Shown: positions 18,018 to 32,492 of the stretch, piece after piece
How the letters are laid out: each line of letters opens with the position of its first letter
How positions within the stretch are numbered: the first letter of the stretch is position 1
Source of the DNA: a virus
DNA: 32,501 nucleotides
Direction: 5' to 3' (one strand)
IMG/VR virus record: IMGVR_UViG_3300040809_000839
Location: 1 to 32,501 of that record
The notes under the pieces: generated by a model
The model's database searches: none
What the model was told of the DNA's origin: nothing
The model's input: only the letters and a program-made list of their open reading frames with translations
Program-made: the position numbers and the translations under genes

Positions 18018-18337
18018 TTCTTACCGCTCCATGCTTGGGCACCAAAAAAGGCAGCCACTAAGCCTGCGACAGCGACAAAGTATGTCGGTGCCATATCACC
18101 AAGAATGCTGGAAGCTTTTTCTAGCCCAGCAACATCAGCAATAACAACAGCGAAGGGATACAACAACATACCAGCAAGAGAGAACCAAGCCATATTTCGT
18201 TGTGCATCTCGCATTGCATCTTGATCTTCAAGTTCTTTACGTTTAAACTCAAGATACAATGCCTCTTCTTCGGGACTTACTTTGCCATCCCCATTTGAAT
18301 CTGCAGGATGAAAACTTTTTTCTTCACTCATTACCAC
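18014..18337 (-). CDS. Membrane protein with EF-hand calcium-binding loop, holin-like
   Basis: This 107-residue protein starts with a soluble part holding a canonical EF-hand loop D-S-N-G-D-G-K-V-S-P-E-E (about 13-24). A charged helix follows (about 27-50), then two membrane segments (about 51-68 and 82-102). Similar proteins with an N-terminal EF-hand and two or three membrane helices are found in large marine phages and are often labelled holin-like. A role in lysis timing is inferred from topology only. It overlaps the genes on both sides. Confidence 0.78.
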   Translation of the reverse strand: MVMSEEKSFHPADSNGDGKVSPEEEALYLEFKRKELEDQDAMRDAQRNMAWFSLAGMLLYPFAVVIADVAGLEKASSILGDMAPTYFVAVAGLVAAFFGAQAWSGKK

Positions 18338-18636
18338 TTCACCTTGTCAGCCCAGTATGCTGCCGACATCTTGCCCTTTGCAATGTTTCTACGATGACGA
18401 GCCTTAAAAGATGCACGCTTTTTCTTCATTGCTGTAGACTCTCCTTTCCTCGGCTTTCCTGCAGTTTTTGCTCCCTGCTGACCGAAACGAATAGTCTTAA
18501 TTTTTGACCCAACTTTTGCCACAACAATATGTGACTTTTTTGGATGGCTAGGAGTACGTTTTGGTTTATTAAACCCCGGTACTCCTGCTCTCTTTAAGCG
18601 AGGGTCTCGCTTTTTACCTTTTCTTTTTGCCGCCAC
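18331..18636 (-). CDS. Highly basic small protein of 101 residues
   Basis: About one third of the 101 residues are Lys or Arg. Recognisable landmarks are G-V-P-G-F-N-K-P-K-R-T-P-S-H-P near the start, I-R-F-G-Q-Q-G in the middle, and S-F-K-A-R-H then G-K-M-S-A-A-Y-W-A-D-K-V-K-W at the end. I recall this pattern from marine phages and some giant viruses, without a known function. The structured C-terminus argues against a simple disordered protamine. It overlaps the next basic gene by 23 bp. Binding to packaged DNA or RNA is a plausible inference. Confidence 0.8.
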   Translation of the reverse strand: MAAKRKGKKRDPRLKRAGVPGFNKPKRTPSHPKKSHIVVAKVGSKIKTIRFGQQGAKTAGKPRKGESTAMKKKRASFKARHRRNIAKGKMSAAYWADKVKW

Positions 18637-18907
18637 GTCTCATTCTCGCTTTCCGCTTGGTGAAAGTTTTCACCATAGTCGGCTTGCCACCTGGGTTACC
18701 TGCTGCTCTCTTACGACGAATCGCAGACCTTTTCTGCGCTTTTGTCATGCGAGCAGCTTTTGAAGCAGGCACACATTTAGGGTACTTTCCTTTTTTCGAA
18801 GTTTTACGGCCACAAGGCATATATCCCCCGCCCTTTTTTGGACGAGAGATATCTACCCACTTCTCTTTAAACCATTTTGTTAAACCACCACTTGGTTTAC
18901 GTGCCAT
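18614..18907 (-). CDS. Highly basic small protein of 97 residues with G-G-L..W..K-W motif
   Basis: About 36 percent of the 97 residues are Lys or Arg. The N-terminus reads G-G-L-T-K-W-F-K-E-K-W-V-D-I-S-R, then G-Y-M-P-C-G-R and Y-P-K-C-V-P with two cysteines (Cys32 and Cys45) that might bind metal. The C-terminal half is K/R-rich and likely disordered (R-R-K-R, R-M-R-R-G-G-K-K-K-R). I associate the N-terminal motif with marine phage and giant virus proteins of unknown function. It is one of four consecutive basic genes. Confidence 0.8.
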   Translation of the reverse strand: MARKPSGGLTKWFKEKWVDISRPKKGGGYMPCGRKTSKKGKYPKCVPASKAARMTKAQKRSAIRRKRAAGNPGGKPTMVKTFTKRKARMRRGGKKKR

Positions 18908-19066
18908 TTACTTTTTCCTGCGCTTCTTCATAATGGCTGCACGAAGTGCTGGAGGTAACTTTTTCTGCTTTGCAGTCAAACCTCCCATAGACTTTTTCTT
19001 TTTACCACCGCGCTTTTTGCCTTTCATTGGCTTTTTCTTTTTACCATGTCCATAATGTCCTGGCAT
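18908..19066 (-). CDS. Highly basic 52-residue protein, protamine-like
   Basis: The ATG at 19064-19066 overlaps the stop of the upstream gene by one base, and the TAA lies at 18908-18910. The 52 residues begin MPGHYGHGKKKKPMKGKKRG. About 42 percent are Lys or Arg. The C-terminal G-G-L-T-A-K-Q-K-K-L-P-P-A-L-R-A-A-I has a conserved look that recurs in marine phage micro-proteins. The frame, tight spacing and the like composition of its neighbours support a real gene. Binding to nucleic acid is likely; the exact role is unknown. Confidence 0.75.
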   Translation of the reverse strand: MPGHYGHGKKKKPMKGKKRGGKKKKSMGGLTAKQKKLPPALRAAIMKKRRKK

Positions 19067-19251
19067 TATTTACTCCCCATGCGGTATTTACCGCCTCGTG
19101 CCTTGTAAGTTTTCACAAGCCACCCATTTGCGTAAGCTGAAGGATATACCTTAAACTTCCTCTTTGCTTCCGCTTTCACTCTCGAGTACAACTTCTTGTT
19201 TGTCGGCACTGGTTTCTTTTTTGCCGTTTTACGTCTTCGACGAGCTGCCAT
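19066..19251 (-). CDS. Highly basic 61-residue protein
   Basis: About 36 percent of the 61 residues are Lys or Arg, and it begins MAARRRRKTAKKKPVP. The middle reads V-K-A-E-A-K-R-K-F-K-V-Y-P-S-A-Y-A-N-G-W-L-V-K-T-Y-K (shown as a motif), which looks folded. Y-P-S-A-Y-A-N-G recurs in phage and giant virus proteins of unknown function. It is the first of four basic genes in a row. Its 5' leader carries a 17-bp repeat of the upstream gene's coding sequence. Confidence 0.8.
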   Translation of the reverse strand: MAARRRRKTAKKKPVPTNKKLYSRVKAEAKRKFKVYPSAYANGWLVKTYKARGGKYRMGSK

Positions 19252-27613: not shown

Positions 27614-27643
27614 ATTATAGCCTCATAGTACCTCGAATGTCAA
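27614..27643 (-). promoter_or_regulatory. Sigma70 promoter P2 for the methyltransferase-tail unit
   Basis: On the minus strand TTGACA (27638-27643) and TATAAT (27614-27619) are separated by 18 bp. The preceding TAAAAATATTTC block matches P5. It fills the 64-bp gap before the methyltransferase-like gene. Confidence 0.87.
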
Positions 27644-27652
27644 GAAATATTT

Positions 27653-28120
27653 TTAGCCTGCTATTATAGAAATGAATCCAATTACGATAACTAAGGTTAC
27701 AACGGTACCTATAACCACTGCAGCAATATCAATTATCATCGCTTTTTTCTCTGCTGCTTCTTTTGCTGCTTTTGCACGGGCGAGACGAATAGCTCTTCTC
27801 TCTTTCATCATATCTTCATAAAAGCCTATTTGACCTGTGTATATGAGATACTCGCGTAATTCTTTTTCGATTGCCATAATCTTATGACGAGCAGCAGTAA
27901 CTTCAAGAGCTTGAGCTTCTACACTTGAACCATTAAAAAGTTTTCCTACAAAGGATGAAGTAGTTGCTTTCATATTTGCTTCCGACAACTGGTCTTTTGC
28001 GTCAAAGAACTTTCCAAAGTATCCAATCATATCTTCTACTTCTTGACCAGTTTCCATCGCTTTTTTGATTGCTCCAAAAGCTGATGTTGCCATAGACACT
28101 GCTGCAGCTATTTCTATCAT
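27653..28120 (-). CDS. Membrane-anchored helical protein, exported-operon member
   Basis: This 155-residue protein has helices with K-K-A-M-E-T-G-Q-E-V-E-D-M-I-G-Y-F-G (about 19-36). A conserved-looking helix follows, E-K-E-L-R-E-Y-L-I-Y-T-G (84-95), then a basic run (R-R-A-I-R-L-A-R-A-K, about 107-116). One membrane segment lies at the C-terminus (about 130-153). It is the last gene of the P1 unit. The membrane-proximal charged run followed by a hydrophobic helix suggests a C-terminal anchor facing the cytoplasm. The family is unknown to me beyond an impression of similar proteins in large marine phages. Confidence 0.75.
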   Translation of the reverse strand: MIEIAAAVSMATSAFGAIKKAMETGQEVEDMIGYFGKFFDAKDQLSEANMKATTSSFVGKLFNGSSVEAQALEVTAARHKIMAIEKELREYLIYTGQIGFYEDMMKERRAIRLARAKAAKEAAEKKAMIIDIAAVVIGTVVTLVIVIGFISIIAG

Positions 28121-28227
28121 AAAAACGCTAGTCCTATTAAAAACCCTATATTCAGCCCAATTGAACAGACTAATACAAAGTCTTTACTAAAAGAATAAGG
28201 TACAAGCTCTTGTATATCATTGTTCAT
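28117..28227 (-). CDS. Tiny membrane protein (36 residues)
   Basis: An ATG at 28225-28227 overlaps the end of the upstream gene by 11 bp, and the stop TGA overlaps the next ATG (ATGA). The 36 residues begin MNNDIQELVPYSFSKDFV and end in one hydrophobic segment (about 18-36). The coupling on both sides supports translation. It is too short for a firm call. Confidence 0.55.
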   Translation of the reverse strand: MNNDIQELVPYSFSKDFVLVCSIGLNIGFLIGLAFL

Positions 28228-28696
28228 TCAGTGGGTTATCCAGTATAACTTGTATCTTTTCTTCCAAGTCTTTTCTCAGAGTGCGAAGATCATTATCAAG
28301 TGTACGGACTCGCTCATTCAGTTTTTGCTCCATTGCATAAACATCATCACGAACTTCTCGCTGGGTCTCAGCGGTCTTGTCGTCTACGCGACGTGCAAGA
28401 TCTTCTACTTTATCCATATCTTCGGAAAGGCTATCTTCAGCTTTCTCCACTTTTACATCAAGGCTTTCTACAAGCACTCGTAGTGATGCCATCTCTTCAC
28501 TTTGTACTGCGAGTTCCTGTTCAATTCCTGACATATCTGGAGCTACATACGACTCAATAGTCTCTTTCATATTTCTATAATCATTGTAAAATTCAAAAGC
28601 ACCCCAAGCTCCACCACCTAGAGTTGAGAGTGCAGTAAGGATGACAAACATTTTGCCACCTTTAAATGTCATTCCTGCAAATTCAAATTCTGCCAT
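28217..28696 (-). CDS. Membrane-anchored coiled-coil protein
   Basis: I chose the ATG at 28694-28696 (MAEFEFAGMTFKGGKMFVIL) with AGGAAG upstream, rather than a TTG further out. It gives 159 residues with one membrane segment (about 15-34). A long coiled coil (about 50-150) follows, with E-x-x-L-x-x-K heptads, for example D-K-V-E-D-L-A-R-R-V-D-D-K. The topology recalls an inner-membrane spanin or an envelope tether, but no cysteine/lipobox partner is seen. It overlaps the small genes on both sides. Confidence 0.75.
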   Translation of the reverse strand: MAEFEFAGMTFKGGKMFVILTALSTLGGGAWGAFEFYNDYRNMKETIESYVAPDMSGIEQELAVQSEEMASLRVLVESLDVKVEKAEDSLSEDMDKVEDLARRVDDKTAETQREVRDDVYAMEQKLNERVRTLDNDLRTLRKDLEEKIQVILDNPLNEQ

Positions 28697-28808
28697 ATCT
28701 GTGTGCTTCCTGTGCAATCTTTCTACAAGATGTAATAATTATGATACCTCCGTTCGGATCATACACCGTGTAGTAAATTAGATTGTCTTTTACTTCGGAC
28801 TTAATCAT
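28683..28808 (-). CDS. Small protein (41 residues) overlapping both neighbours
   Basis: An ATG at 28806-28808 lies inside the last codons of the upstream gene, and a TGA at 28683-28685 lies inside the start of the downstream gene. The product of 41 residues contains L-I-Y-Y-T-V-Y-D-P-N-G-G-I-I-I-I-T-S, a beta-hairpin pattern that recurs in tiny phage proteins. It fills the otherwise empty 100-bp gap. No function is known. Confidence 0.6.
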   Translation of the reverse strand: MIKSEVKDNLIYYTVYDPNGGIIIITSCRKIAQEAHRYGRI

Positions 28809-29232
28809 CTTGAAACTCCAGAGCTCTTAGTTGCTGTAACTCTCTTTCTAGCTTCATTACTTCAAGTCTCTTTTTCTTTAACTCAAGTTGGTAGAGTGTA
28901 TTACAGTTAAGTCTTTCTTTTGGCGCTCCAAGAGGAATTGTAATCTTTCCGTAAACACCAATATCCCTCATAAAATTATCATAGTTATAAGGCATATAAG
29001 GATCCCCGGCTGCTAGGTTATATGTTGGGTCTCCTTGATTTAATAATCCCACAACGCCAAACTCTACGTTTGTAGATGAGCCGATCGCTGCAGAACACTC
29101 TAAATCTCCCGCACGAATTCGATCAGATTGAAAATTCTGCGGAGACTGAGGCAATGTTAGATTTAACGACGACGATTGAGCAAATGCGAACATCGGAAAA
29201 AGTAACAGTAAAATTACCGTATTTTTGAACAT
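28801..29232 (-). CDS. Exported protein with signal peptide and C-terminal coiled coil (143 residues)
   Basis: The signal peptide is 1-18 (M-F-K-N-T-V-I-L-L-L-L-F-P-M-F-A-F-A, cleavage before Q). The mature part contains A-G-D-L-E-C-S-A-A-I-G (about 41-51) and V-E-F-G-V-V-G-L, then I-G-V-Y-G-K-I-T-I-P-L-G-A-P (about 91-104). A charged coiled coil ends it (about 113-139). Two cysteines (Cys46 and Cys109) could form a disulfide. It follows another exported-protein gene with a 19-bp overlap. The mature beta region followed by a coiled coil suggests an envelope subunit that pairs with a membrane partner. Confidence 0.78.
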   Translation of the reverse strand: MFKNTVILLLLFPMFAFAQSSSLNLTLPQSPQNFQSDRIRAGDLECSAAIGSSTNVEFGVVGLLNQGDPTYNLAAGDPYMPYNYDNFMRDIGVYGKITIPLGAPKERLNCNTLYQLELKKKRLEVMKLERELQQLRALEFQDD

Positions 29233-29585
29233 ATTCTCGAGCTTACCATATTTGTAGGAATTTCCTGTTTCAGAAACCTACTTCTTGAGCAAATATACAT
29301 TGCTTTAAAAAGCATCTCTTCTCGAATGAAAATCTGTACTTTCACTCTTTCTAAGTAGCTTGCTTTATAAATACGATTGGTAGAGACGAACGGGAGCTTG
29401 TTAAAGTCTTCGTCCGTAACCATCACTTCGAAATACTCTACATCTTCTCTTTTGTTAAAAAGTAACATCTCCGTTTCCAATACTTTATCCATATAAGAAG
29501 GTTTAAAGACTGGATATGTAGGAGTCCAAGAGTGGGCACTTGCGTACCCACTGAGGAATAAAAGAAGTAGTAAACTATTTCGCAA
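29214..29585 (-). CDS. Exported protein with signal peptide (123 residues)
   Basis: A TTG start at 29583-29585 lies inside the upstream gene's end; no ATG occurs before the signal peptide. The signal peptide runs to about 17 (R-N-S-L-L-L-L-L-F-L-S-G-Y-A-S-A). The mature chain begins H-S-W-T-P-T-Y-P, then carries beta-like V-E-Y-F-E-V-M-V-T-D and V-K-V-Q-I-F-I-R-E-E. It has C-S-R-S-R near 98-102 and ends S-S-R-I-C-S-K-I-R. The two mature cysteines (Cys98 and Cys119) likely pair in the periplasm. The V-x-V-T-D-E strand recalls Ig-like pilus chaperones, but this is only a resemblance. Confidence 0.75.
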   Translation of the reverse strand: MRNSLLLLLFLSGYASAHSWTPTYPVFKPSYMDKVLETEMLLFNKREDVEYFEVMVTDEDFNKLPFVSTNRIYKASYLERVKVQIFIREEMLFKAMYICSRSRFLKQEIPTNMVSSRICSKIR

Positions 29586-30066
29586 TGCAGTTGGCCTCTA
29601 CCATCGCTGTATAGTTACCTCCTGGAAATGGTTTATCGCCGCCATATTCTGCTTTCGATTCCATTTCAAACCAAGTACTGCCAGCAATTGTCAAATCAAA
29701 CTCAGTTGTAGCATTGTATTCGATTTTATTCGTATCATATGCTGACATACCTGCGTCCGATACCTCATGAACAGCAGCTGAGCCTGTCCACGCTACAGTA
29801 TCAGCAAGCCCAGGACTTTGAGAGAACGATGTGGGAGTAGTAATTACAGCTTTGTAATAATCTGCAAGAACTACATCATATCGTACAACTGGAAGAACAC
29901 CGCCATCCGTTGCTGCCGTTGACAGAACGTCTGCTGATGGGTTTCCATAAACTCCAGACGTGTCAGGAACTACAATGCAGTTGCCTTCGACGGTGCCATT
30001 GATAGGAACATTTTCCGCAGCTACGCTTGCAGAAAACACTGCACATACAAGAAGTTTTCGAAACAT
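29575..30066 (-). CDS. Exported protein with signal peptide, fimbrial-like beta domain (163 residues)
   Basis: I chose the ATG at 30064-30066 because it has AGGAG 7 bases upstream and is followed directly by a signal peptide (M-F-R-K-L-L-V-C-A-V-F-S-A-S-V-A-A). A longer frame upstream overlaps the prior gene. The mature domain starts E-N-V-P-I-N-G-T-V-E-G-N-C-I-V and ends M-V-E-A-N-C-I-A-K, so Cys31 and Cys160 probably pair. This spacing, with V-x-G-T-V near the N-terminus and V-E-A-x-C at the end, resembles pilin/spore-coat-U type exported beta domains. Homologous-looking proteins occur in marine phages without known role. Confidence 0.77.
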   Translation of the reverse strand: MFRKLLVCAVFSASVAAENVPINGTVEGNCIVVPDTSGVYGNPSADVLSTAATDGGVLPVVRYDVVLADYYKAVITTPTSFSQSPGLADTVAWTGSAAVHEVSDAGMSAYDTNKIEYNATTEFDLTIAGSTWFEMESKAEYGGDKPFPGGNYTAMVEANCIAK

Positions 30067-30076
30067 TAATAGTCTC

Positions 30077-30967
30077 CTATCTTTCGAACTGAGAGCGAAC
30101 AAGCGCTCGATGAAGTTTGTCTTGGGCATTGTTCATTCTAATCCCTCGACTCTGCCGTACTAAGGTTTTTACCAAAGTACCATTATCGGAAATATACGCT
30201 TTACTCACATACTCGGGAGAAGTAAGTGAGGCTGAATAAGCGCTTGGAAAAACATTCATATTTGCTAAAGCCATTTCTGTTGCGTTGTCCATGGCTGCGA
30301 GAGAAGACTCCATTGCAATTCCGAGTCTTTTTTCGAGCATCTGTTTTTCTAAGTCCTCTTCAGAACCTTCCACTACTCCTTCTCTTTCTTCCTCTTCATC
30401 TTCTTCGGATCTCATTACTGCTTTTCGATCAATTTCATCTTGTACATAATCATCTTCAAGAGGATCCGCAACTTCCGGTATATCTGGTATGTCTGGAATA
30501 AATCCTTCACAATCTGGGGAGGATTGTGGATTGAAACAGGGGTCAAAGCGATATGAGTAGACTATAAAAGGGTCATCTACTCTTCCTTCCCCTTCAACCA
30601 CAATTTCTCCGTCCCCGAAACGGCTTCCAAGAATTGCATTTACTGGAATACTCTTTGTAATTGTATTTCCTGGAAGTCCGCTCCAATCGTCTACAGAACG
30701 AAAAACATATTCGCCTTCATTTGCAGTATCTTCATTCTGCACATATACAATCATTCCGGTGTCCGGATCTTTTACCGCAGTATAGCGATATAAAACATTC
30801 GTAACTTCGAGACCCATTTGCTGCGGAAGCACATTTGTCATTACCCAGCGCATGCCGTCTGATGCGGCATTTAGTGATTGTCCGAAAACTATATCAGAGG
30901 AGTAAGAGAAGTGCGAGTAAAGCAGCGATACCACCGCCAGCGGTAGCAGTTTGTTTCTGCGTATCAT
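30077..30967 (-). CDS. Exported protein with acidic hinge, likely envelope or virion component (296 residues)
   Basis: The ATG at 30965-30967 starts a signal peptide (about 1-23: M-I-R-R-N-K-L-L-P-L-A-V-V-S-L-L-Y-S). The mature part is beta-rich (about 25-150, with V-F-R-S-V-D-D-W-S-G-L-P-G). A C-x-N-P-Q-S-S-P-D-C segment follows, then P-D-I-P-D-I-P-E and a strongly acidic run (about 185-210, E-E-D-E-E-E-E-R-E). A helical C-terminus completes it. The first 74 bp overlap the end of the upstream gene in another frame. Function is unknown; the acidic segment looks like a flexible hinge. Confidence 0.77.
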   Translation of the reverse strand: MIRRNKLLPLAVVSLLYSHFSYSSDIVFGQSLNAASDGMRWVMTNVLPQQMGLEVTNVLYRYTAVKDPDTGMIVYVQNEDTANEGEYVFRSVDDWSGLPGNTITKSIPVNAILGSRFGDGEIVVEGEGRVDDPFIVYSYRFDPCFNPQSSPDCEGFIPDIPDIPEVADPLEDDYVQDEIDRKAVMRSEEDEEEEREGVVEGSEEDLEKQMLEKRLGIAMESSLAAMDNATEMALANMNVFPSAYSASLTSPEYVSKAYISDNGTLVKTLVRQSRGIRMNNAQDKLHRALVRSQFER

Positions 30968-31481
30968 TCAAAAACTCTTTGTCTTCCTCTTTTGAAGAAG
31001 GACGCTCGCCATCGTCAGTGGCCCAGCCAGCTTTTGCAGCTTCTCCTATCATACCATTATAGGGGCAAGGTGTTCCCGCATGCATCATCGCATCGAAAAC
31101 TCGTTGATCTTGGCACATAACTGACACGGCTGCTACTTTCATGCCCATGTCATACAAGGTTTTTGCATTTTTGAGACGTTCACAGTTGTCATCCGTGAAT
31201 TGCGTGCCGGTTGAGATCCCTAGGATCTGGGTTTGCACCGCCCCTGCTACTCCAAATGTACATAAATCGGAGTTAGAAGTGTTAATTGTGGGAGAAATTG
31301 CTGAAGGAGGGGGACTTTTGAGTGTAGTCGTTGTACTTCCAGTAGTTGTGATAGTGCTATCCGTAGTGCTTTCAGTACGAATTACTTCTTGCGAGTTAGC
31401 TTCGGCTATAAAAAGGCCAAAAAATATAATTGCTATGCCTACAACTACAATTCTAGTCAGACTTGCATCTAAGTTATCCAT
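30894..31481 (-). CDS. Exported protein with signal anchor and C-terminal membrane segment (195 residues)
   Basis: The first gene of the P1 unit. The N-terminus has a hydrophobic segment (about 10-30: I-V-V-V-G-I-A-I-I-F-F-G-L-F-I-A-E-A) that may be a signal peptide or anchor. A Thr/Ser-rich linker follows (about 35-65). A cysteine-bearing domain comes next (about 70-150, with N-S-D-L-C-T-F-G-V-A-G-A-V-Q-T-Q-I-L-G and Y-D-M-G-M-K-V-A-A-V-S-V-M-C). The C-terminus is hydrophobic (G-G-G-I-A-A-L-L-A-L-L-L-L-L). Four cysteines in the domain suggest disulfides. It probably spans the envelope. Its ATG has no good nearby ribosome site; an unused AAGGAGG lies about 40 bases upstream. Confidence 0.77.
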   Translation of the reverse strand: MDNLDASLTRIVVVGIAIIFFGLFIAEANSQEVIRTESTTDSTITTTGSTTTTLKSPPPSAISPTINTSNSDLCTFGVAGAVQTQILGISTGTQFTDDNCERLKNAKTLYDMGMKVAAVSVMCQDQRVFDAMMHAGTPCPYNGMIGEAAKAGWATDDGERPSSKEEDKEFLNDTQKQTATAGGGIAALLALLLLL

Positions 31482-31546: not shown

Positions 31547-31575
31547 ATTATACCGAGGTTGGAGTCAAATGTCAA
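31547..31575 (-). promoter_or_regulatory. Sigma70 promoter P1 for the exported-protein operon
   Basis: On the minus strand TTGACA (31570-31575) and TATAAT (31547-31552) are separated by 17 bp, a perfect consensus. An A/T-rich block with ATTTC precedes the -35, as at P2 and P5. The predicted transcript starts near 31540, leaving a leader of about 60 bases. Confidence 0.88.
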
Positions 31576-31882: not shown

Positions 31883-31910
31883 AATATTACCACTATTAGG
31901 GGTTGCAATT
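31876..31910 (+). repeat. Composite operator/-35 element, copy 2
   Basis: TTTGTGAAATATTACCA, nine variable bases, then GTTGCAATT, at the same internal spacing as copy 1 and 175 bp from it. Confidence 0.75.
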
Positions 31911-31931
31911 CATGGGATTATTTGAGACAAT
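31903..31931 (+). promoter_or_regulatory. Rightward (early) promoter 2, weak
   Basis: TTGCAA (31903-31908), 17-bp spacer, GACAAT (31926-31931). The -10 is poor, so it may be weak, activated, or only a binding site. It would supply a transcript to the gene at 31984. Confidence 0.42.
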
Positions 31932-31983
31932 AGCATCATCGGTTAGGGGATGGGCCTCTACCGAAAACACTAGGGAGGGCATT

Positions 31984-32295
31984 ATGCCTTACACTGAAAA
32001 GCAGGTTGCGGCACTGCAAAACGCCGCTCAACAATATGGTACGCTCAACGGTGAGCTTGCCGCTAAACTCGCGGCCGATCTCGGCCAGTCAAAGCGTAGC
32101 GTGATCGCTAAGATCAAGTCGCTTGACTTGCCCTACGCTGTCGCGTCAAAGCCCGTAAAGGGCACTCGCTCCACTAGCAAGGCCGAATATGTCGCGGCCA
32201 TTGCTAAAGCGTTAGACGCTGACGCGTCTACCCTTGCGGGTCTGGAGAAAGCGACCGCGCTTTCTCTCTCCGGCTTGCTGGCGGCTATCCGATGA
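31984..32295 (+). CDS. Putative DNA-binding protein with HTH-like segment (103 residues)
   Basis: I chose the ATG at 31984 with TAGGGAGGG upstream; a frame extended to 31903 begins with a TTG inside the promoter element. The protein starts MPYTEKQVAALQNAAQQYG. An HTH-like stretch (A-K-L-A-A-D-L-G-Q-S-K-R-S-V-I-A-K-I-K-S-L-D-L) is at about 26-48. The C-terminus has L-E-K-A-T-A-L-S-L-S-G-L-L. The L-G-x-S-x-R-S-V-I-A-K pattern occurs in small phage proteins of unknown role. It may be an early regulator. Local G+C is clearly higher than in the leftward genes. Confidence 0.72.
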   Translation: MPYTEKQVAALQNAAQQYGTLNGELAAKLAADLGQSKRSVIAKIKSLDLPYAVASKPVKGTRSTSKAEYVAAIAKALDADASTLAGLEKATALSLSGLLAAIR

Positions 32296-32492
32296 TAGTC
32301 GCGCTTGCTTCTTGGATCGGGGCCGCTTGCATGATGGCGGCTCCTTTCATCATCGACACAAGCGCAGGAAAATATCTTGCGATCTGCGGTTTGGTATTAT
32401 TAACATTGCAAGCCATAGCCAATCGGTGCTATAATCTGGTTTTGCTTAACATCGTCGGAATTGGAGGATATTTTTATGCGCTTTATCTATGA
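32292..32492 (+). CDS. Small membrane protein (66 residues), two or three spans
   Basis: The ATG overlaps the upstream stop (ATGA, 4 bp). The 66 residues consist of hydrophobic segments at about 3-20, 28-43 and 48-65, joined by short charged loops (D-T-S-A-G-K and N-R-C-Y-N). Half-transporter-like (PQ-loop-type) proteins have this look, but nothing decisive is visible. It probably belongs to the early set, for example as an envelope modifier. Confidence 0.68.
   Translation: MIVALASWIGAACMMAAPFIIDTSAGKYLAICGLVLLTLQAIANRCYNLVLLNIVGIGGYFYALYL

Follow-up and report, generated by a model that had tools for sequence, protein, structure and literature searches.

Pairs of chaperone and subunit of the pilus type are known from bacteria, as machines made with an usher. 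The chaperone-usher pathway has as its minimum a pilin, a periplasmic chaperone and an usher; its pilins lack the last strand and have a donor strand at the N-terminus (PMC10104325). Among phages, an idea of 'sibling capture' has been published for curli-bearing pelagiphages (PMC7029224), and in phage Melnitz csgGF lies downstream of thyX (PMC9004378). Here we describe a set of nine leftward genes in an IMG/VR virus record (IMGVR_UViG_3300040809_000839), of which the whole stretch of 32,501 bases was analysed and is referred to as the window. The products are named P1 (195 amino acids, aa) to P9 (155 aa) in order of transcription. P1 to P5 form a conserved, laterally mobile cassette of exported-type proteins, with P7 usually next. 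From structure models, P3 is predicted to be a pilin-like subunit and P4 a one-domain periplasmic chaperone of the PapD type encoded beside it.

A conserved cassette of exported-type proteins

Relatives of P1 were found at no fewer than, that is at least, 599 places in IMG/VR and those of P5 at at least 586, so that the module is a common one. Two sets of loci were drawn from this database. The first came from searches with P1 (best 80 of the 599) and P2 and comprised 123 loci, some sharing a contig, in which gene presence was scored by single-sequence searches; the second came from a search with the P5 alignment (best 80 of the 586) and comprised 78 loci. The series P1-P2-P3-P4-P5 was complete in 108/123 loci of the first set, all 108 in that order, while the remaining 15 carried an unbroken part of the series which stopped 0-117 nt from the end of the locus. 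No other order of the five genes was seen among the 123 loci. In the P5-seeded set the whole series was present in 69/78 loci, and in 68/68 where more than 2.6 kb lay upstream of P5; 35 of these 68 were sequences absent from the first set and 33 repeated sequences already in it. Both sets together gave 112 distinct complete cassettes, as told apart by the C-terminus of P5. P7 was the usual sixth gene, being present in 89/123 loci by single-sequence search and in 76/78 P5-seeded loci. An earlier note on this DNA had read all nine genes as possibly one coupled apparatus of exported and membrane proteins, and had proposed that conservation of the 195-296-163-123-143 residue order be checked. The order was kept, and a coupled set of exported proteins is supported by both locus sets; an apparatus of nine found no support, since six genes recur (P1-P5 and P7) and three vary (P6, P8 and P9), and the suggestion of a pseudopilus was left unsupported.

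The genes that flank the cassette differ between loci, and the commonest non-cassette neighbour was present in only 31/123. PF03420, which we take to be the T4-type prohead protease, was found in 8/49 contigs bearing all or some of the cassette, and the cassette therefore resides in unlike phages. The window itself carries, by our own reading, late genes of siphophage type, including those for terminase and NlpC/P60 domains, and its terminase showed 49.8% identity to that of Pectobacterium phage My1, presumably a T5-like phage. Another group of 29 loci lay on genome contigs labelled variously as Rhodobacteraceae, Bacteroidetes, Neomarinimicrobiota and others; because these loci bear several labels and are likely to be phage contigs binned with bacteria, no host is claimed. 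No annotated phage record was seen to carry the five-gene form: neither P2 (at E 1e-5) nor P3 had a match among 50,697 of them. A literature search, partly aimed elsewhere and thin on subscription journals, yielded no published description of the cassette.

In the window, all nine open reading frames of the earlier note were present at the lengths it had given and all on the minus strand, with spacings of -74, 10, -11, -19, -8, -14, -11 and -4 nt between successive genes from P1 to P9. The overlap between P1 and P2 measured 62-86 nt in 79/79 locus pairs checked. The promoter claimed before the 195-residue gene was also there, as a sigma-70 site matching the consensus at 12/12 positions. Such a 12/12 site preceded P1 in 11/86 related loci, as compared with 1/233 control stretches upstream of P3, P5 or P7 and 1/430 shuffles, and consensus promoters of its own are thus a trait of a subset of loci.

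Hydrophobic export-type N-termini, judged by a simple hydropathy count, were seen in P1-P5 of the window, as had been proposed, and in 430/437 of their relatives (P1 96/99, P2 87/88, P3 83/85, P4 86/86, P5 78/79). A lipobox was found in 1, 0, 0, 1 and 2 of these relatives respectively (4/437 overall). The mature-part cysteines described earlier for the 195-, 163-, 123- and 143-residue proteins amount to four in P1 and two each in P3, P4 and P5; P2, which had been omitted, has two as well, and those of P1-P5 are invariant across the five protein alignments. The description of three later genes as encoding both membrane segments and coiled coils applied in part: P7 has both and P8 and P9 have a membrane segment, but a coiled coil was evident in P7 only and P6 has no membrane segment.

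Neighbouring genes of structural or tail type, seen in the window (own reading), in CRP-810 and in the Vibrio phage Thalassa, would accord with the exported proteins being virion components that are added at the envelope during exit. However, Sec-type signals and disulphide-type Cys pairs fit the periplasm and not cytoplasmic virion assembly, and the flanking genes vary; we regard this origin of the proteins as most improbable.

Database comparisons of the nine window proteins gave no Pfam family over its cut-off, and a search of the PDB by sequence profile gave nothing significant for P1-P5. P1 (4.6e-16), P4 (0.0019), P5 (7.3e-6) and P9 (1.2e-8) matched PHROGs 20531, 25455, 37374 and 32327 respectively, and P2 and P3 of the window had no PHROG match. 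The P4-like and P5-like proteins of Vibrio phages also fell into 25455 and 37374, and their P3-like protein into 25895. All five are uncharacterised families with no function assigned.

Table 1. Coordinates of the P1-P9 genes and associated features in the window
Feature	Position	Strand	Description
Sigma-70 promoter	31547..31575	-	12/12, TTGACA-17-TATAAT, upstream of P1
P1	30894..31481	-	195 aa; after the signal peptide, a Ser/Thr-Pro linker and a compact domain (four invariant Cys), ending in a hydrophobic tail
P1/P2 overlap	30894..30967	-	74 nt; one frame encodes the hydrophobic tail of P1, another the signal peptide of P2
P2	30077..30967	-	296 aa; signal peptide, then two conserved domains joined by an acidic linker, the N-terminal one with a Cys pair
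P3	29575..30066	-	163 aa; predicted pilin-like immunoglobulin (Ig)-type beta sandwich, Cys30/Cys160, N-terminal V-x-I-x-G-x-V segment
P4	29214..29585	-	123 aa, TTG start; predicted to be one chaperone domain of PapD-like type; Cys99/Cys119, position 121 basic
P5	28801..29232	-	143 aa; exported, with one Cys pair; two beta-like segments are conserved and the C-terminal tail is helix-like (segments by eye)
P6	28683..28808	-	41 aa; variable accessory, relatives in 10 IMG/VR loci, located there between P9 and P7
P7	28217..28696	-	159 aa; long coiled coil after an N-terminal membrane segment, NPL conserved at the C-terminus
P8	28117..28227	-	36-aa membrane peptide; variable accessory, relatives in 14 IMG/VR loci, Kyte-Doolittle (KD) peak 2.42
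P9	27653..28120	-	155 aa; variable accessory with a C-terminal membrane segment; 26 IMG/VR loci have relatives, at differing positions in the order
Second sigma-70 promoter	27614..27643	-	12/12; after P9, before the next downstream gene

Predicted folds of P3 and P4

P4 was modelled by AlphaFold2 with a predicted local distance difference test score (pLDDT) of 92.4. When the model was compared with the PDB by Foldseek, the best 27 rows were all fimbrial chaperones or their complexes, with MSP domains next; the best match was DraB (7.4e-5), and 20/1990 matches reached 1e-3. Alignment with VIA placed Caf1M first at Z 10.8 over 99 residues at 2.7 A, with SafB, FimC and DraB at 10.7. On these comparisons P4 is predicted to have the fold of a PapD-like N-terminal domain, and it covers that domain of the chaperones only (residues 1-114 of FimC and PapD, 9-141 of Caf1M). 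The invariant C99 and C119 of P4 sit on the last two strands of the model, which we take to be the placement found in FGL chaperones such as Caf1M. Position 121 is basic in 64/64 relatives (K in 54, R in 10) and would correspond to residue 112 of PapD/FimC if the ends of the matched ranges align without gaps; R8 and K112 of the PapD cleft presumably hold the C-terminus of the subunit. The region of P4 that matches the cleft Arg reads T-P-T-Y-P instead. A search of BFVD with P4 returned two matches below 1e-3, both unnamed. The earlier note had not suspected that the 123-residue protein beside the fimbrial-type one is, as predicted here from its model, chaperone-like.

His18, the predicted mature N-terminus of P4, is also invariant in 64/64 relatives, and is possibly a metal ligand of the histidine-brace type or else purely structural. 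A copper protein of the CopC type, considered for P4 from this invariant His, was set aside as less likely, CopC not being among the 50 structure matches listed.

The AlphaFold2 model of P3 reached a pLDDT of 90.7, and seven of its ten best Foldseek rows were chaperone-usher pilins (CfaB, the pilin domain of PapG and a subunit of the FimD-tip complex), with a best E of 1.5e-3. The fimbrial-type fold attributed earlier to the 163-residue protein thus finds support in AlphaFold2 and Foldseek, and is weak in VIA (Z <8). An alternating V-x-I-x-G-x-V motif precedes the first strand of P3. G24 and C30 were present in 62/62 relatives, as were I/V/L at position 22 and V/I at position 26. Because P3 adjoins a PapD-like protein and bears this alternating N-terminal motif, the reading of P3 as a pilin is raised.

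With a pilin-like P3, its motif before the first strand and a chaperone-like P4, one could also envisage a surface fibre, in which P4-chaperoned P3 would polymerise via its N-terminal strand and exit by a pore other than an usher. The resulting appendage would aggregate or mark infected cells, a role like that suggested for phage-encoded curli as sibling capture. No pore candidate was identified, however. The usher family PF00577 was over its cut-off in 0/50 records, many of which are fragments, and a host usher is possible; the search gave one 12.4-bit match with two stops, and its E. coli control was positive. CsgG (PF03783) was found in 0/49 cassette contigs and matched in 4/14 controls, and CsgF and CsgA/B were not searched for. 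For Melnitz, moreover, it is reported that no clumping was observed (PMC9004378), and we consider a fibre unlikely. Curli itself, which had been suggested by the pelagiphage papers, was rejected for the cassette on the absence of CsgG from these contigs.

Sub-modules and the proposed envelope complex

The earlier note had taken single scattering of the genes in other phages as a sign that no complex exists. Parts of the cassette do occur apart, but they do so as sub-modules, one of P1 with an exported protein and P7, and one of P3, P4 and P5.

Relatives of P1 were found in 11 annotated phage records, including six Pelagibacter and two Roseobacter phages, where the gene after P1 is typically that of another exported-type protein, with a membrane-anchored coiled coil next. 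In the SAR11 phage HTVC115P this coiled coil is a clear relative of P7 (35.7%, 1e-26), completing a sub-module of P1, exported protein and P7, and in ctXG6705 (L003) it matches P7 weakly (2.1e-4). In each of the six other coiled coils of pelagiphage type the C-terminus is NPL, followed at most by a few residues. Among the 29 loci on genome contigs, five had P1-P5 and P7, one had P1-P3, and seven lacked P3-P5 and had a long middle protein with P1 and P7. Relatives of P1 also exist without a detectable P7, and kinship with P7 is claimed only for the HTVC115P relative, the weak L003 match and the contigs binned into metagenome-assembled genomes (MAGs). No Pfam family was over its cut-off among ten middle proteins. 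The middle protein of L150 (L150:8579-10720) has many copies of a Cys-Pro-Gly-Tyr motif, resembling the Cys-pair region of P2.

The second sub-module was found in cultured T5-like Vibrio phages. In Thalassa and pVp-1 a P3-like gene and a P4-like gene are followed by a P5 gene, and two small genes further on by a holin and an endolysin. P5 relatives occur in 72 annotated phage records, all of Vibrio phages. Comparison of the window families with the Vibrio trio by hhalign gave 92.8% for P3, 98.5% for P4 and 99.2% for P5, and the P4 profile picked out, in Thalassa (5.3e-6) and pVp-1 (1.9e-7), precisely the gene that separates the P3-like one from the P5-like one. The KVP40-like and jumbo phages of Vibrio have the P4-like gene next to the P5-like one, with a third exported gene after them. 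Nine trio-type proteins of Vibrio phages gave no Pfam family over cut-off.

The place of the trio just upstream of annotated holin and endolysin genes brings in a role as a lysis aid, that is, a complex for outer-membrane disruption or lysis timing, with P7 spanin-like at the inner membrane and P1 and P2 as its periplasmic or outer-membrane partners. The i-spanin-like topology of P7 would suit such a role, as would the P1-type genes that lie a few genes from annotated lysozyme or peptidase M15 genes in L003, HTVC023P and HTVC033P. Against this, endolysin-type genes, sought within 3 kb by six single-sequence probes that may undercount, were near only 5/42 cassettes downstream and 6/56 upstream, and strong Rz-like matches (E <4e-8) lay outside the cassette in 10/44 contigs. 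Weaker Rz-like matches, at 1e-3, were found in 17/44 contigs and were left unused because the profile also matches 9/14 control genomes. The lipobox of an o-spanin lipoprotein was lacking in all but the 4/437 relatives of P1-P5 given above, and to our knowledge no lysis part consists of a pilin-chaperone pair. On the rarity of endolysin genes within 3 kb by these six probes, a lysis cassette is rejected as the general role, which the earlier note had offered as one example, and we judge a lysis aid decidedly unlikely.

We prefer superinfection exclusion or masking of the cell surface on four features of the module: its mobility, its accessory nature, its conservation across phages and its general lack of linkage to lysis. 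This is the most likely role of all the readings, although it is put forward tentatively; another or an unknown role is fairly unlikely. As a whole, the locus is best explained as a mobile exported cassette in which a pilin-chaperone-like pair, P3/P4, contributes to a complex at the envelope or surface of the infected cell, an explanation to which we give an even chance. P1-P5 would be exported by Sec, and P4 would give its last beta strand to P3 (donor-strand complementation), thereby keeping P3 assembly-competent. P3 would then join P5. P1 and P2, together with inner-membrane P7 as the anchor, could form a tethered scaffold across the periplasm, and the product would be an envelope or surface complex that alters the envelope of the infected cell.

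Several results weigh against this explanation. For P3, 0/887 Foldseek matches were at or below 1e-3 and VIA puts staphylococcal Ig-like adhesins first, at Z 7.9 and below; since pilins lead Foldseek weakly and adhesins lead VIA, P3 is called 'Ig-like, pilin-like' on its fold alone. The PapD fold of P4 is common to MSP/VAP domains and to a chitosanase domain (VIA Z 10.7), P4 is without the second domain of a two-domain PapD-like chaperone, and the usher search described above was negative. In annotated phage records the P4 profile had no match in 15/17, and these 15 include four Vibrio phages with a P4-like gene assigned by place and alignment. The third exported gene of KVP40-like and jumbo phages was rejected as a P3, its kinship being weak, over 47 columns that are mostly signal peptide. 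Comparison of P7 with six other pelagiphage-type coiled coils by hhalign gave 27.3%, which is not significant; for this value the HTVC115P protein, common to both alignments, was removed, as the 98.9% obtained with it was inflated. P2 and seven pelagiphage-type middle proteins gave 16.5% and no kinship, with weak matches confined to the C-terminal part of P2 and the C-termini of long middle proteins (L150 8.7e-4, L156 1.3e-4), and in T5-like phages the trio lies near lysis genes. The matches to L150 and L156 suggest that P2 and the long middle proteins have a common C-terminal domain with exchangeable N-terminal halves.

A broader proposition, possible but doubtful, is that of an usher-independent phage chaperone-subunit pathway. 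Here a one-domain PapD-like protein would deliver a pilin-like subunit to a phage-made scaffold (P1, P2, P5 and P7), yielding a surface or periplasmic structure that reprograms the envelope, with parts common to T4-like, T5-like and siphophage-like lineages. If true, viruses would have an unexplored means of rebuilding the host envelope, one that uses half a chaperone and its pilin-like partner but no usher. As the trio has relatives in cultured T5-like Vibrio phages, its function is directly testable.

Flanking genes and comparison with known systems

Downstream of P9, a 203-aa gene (window 27588-26977) has its own 12/12 promoter, and its product, with no Pfam family over cut-off, contains the stretch HPPCTYLASSG, which we take to recall a methyltransferase motif. 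Upstream of P1, a divergent pair on the plus strand (31903-32492) encodes a regulator-like protein of 130 aa and a membrane protein of 66 aa; 17 and 10 loci respectively have look-alikes of the two, matched by eye, on the opposite strand upstream of the cassette. Further away, the protein at window 18337-18014 has a sub-threshold EF-hand match and hydrophobic segments, with relatives in 31/123 cassette loci and in the SAR11 phage HTVC008M and the OM43 phage Melnitz (67-68% identity over 79%). A series of small Lys/Arg-rich proteins is encoded at 18331-19251, and similar-looking ones occur near the cassette in other loci. In 15 loci, several of them from the same or near-identical contigs (L016, L017, L021, L039, L040, L055, L096-L099, L103-L106 and L110), the cassette has a gene read as thyX 1.1-4.2 kb upstream; csgGF of Melnitz likewise lies on the downstream side of thyX (PMC9004378).

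Like the Rz/Rz1 spanins, P7 combines an N-terminal membrane segment with a coiled coil; unlike them, the cassette coexists with separate Rz-like genes, and its P1-P5 are nearly without the o-spanin-like lipobox. With the phage curli (type VIII secretion system, T8SS) modules it has in common that a multi-gene exported envelope module recurs in several phage families (PMC7029224, PMC9599517 and PMC9004378), and it differs from those of pelagiphages and Melnitz in that the cassette contigs lack CsgG. Chaperone-usher pili (FimC/PapD/Caf1M/SafB) resemble it in encoding an exported Ig-like subunit, here putatively P3, beside a PapD-like periplasmic protein, here by prediction P4, in one operon. In contrast to these pili, P4 has one domain, there are extra proteins (P1, P2, P5 and P7), the genes are phage-borne and no usher is over cut-off. 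Of the parts of that pathway, the models thus place the chaperone-domain fold in the cassette and may place the pilin fold there, while the usher and the two-domain chaperone are lacking. By the usher, CsgG and endolysin searches above, the cassette is neither a chaperone-usher pilus system nor curli nor, in general, a lysis cassette. Databases hold some of its members solely as families of unassigned function, and the cassette is kin to chaperone-subunit systems and to phage envelope modules.

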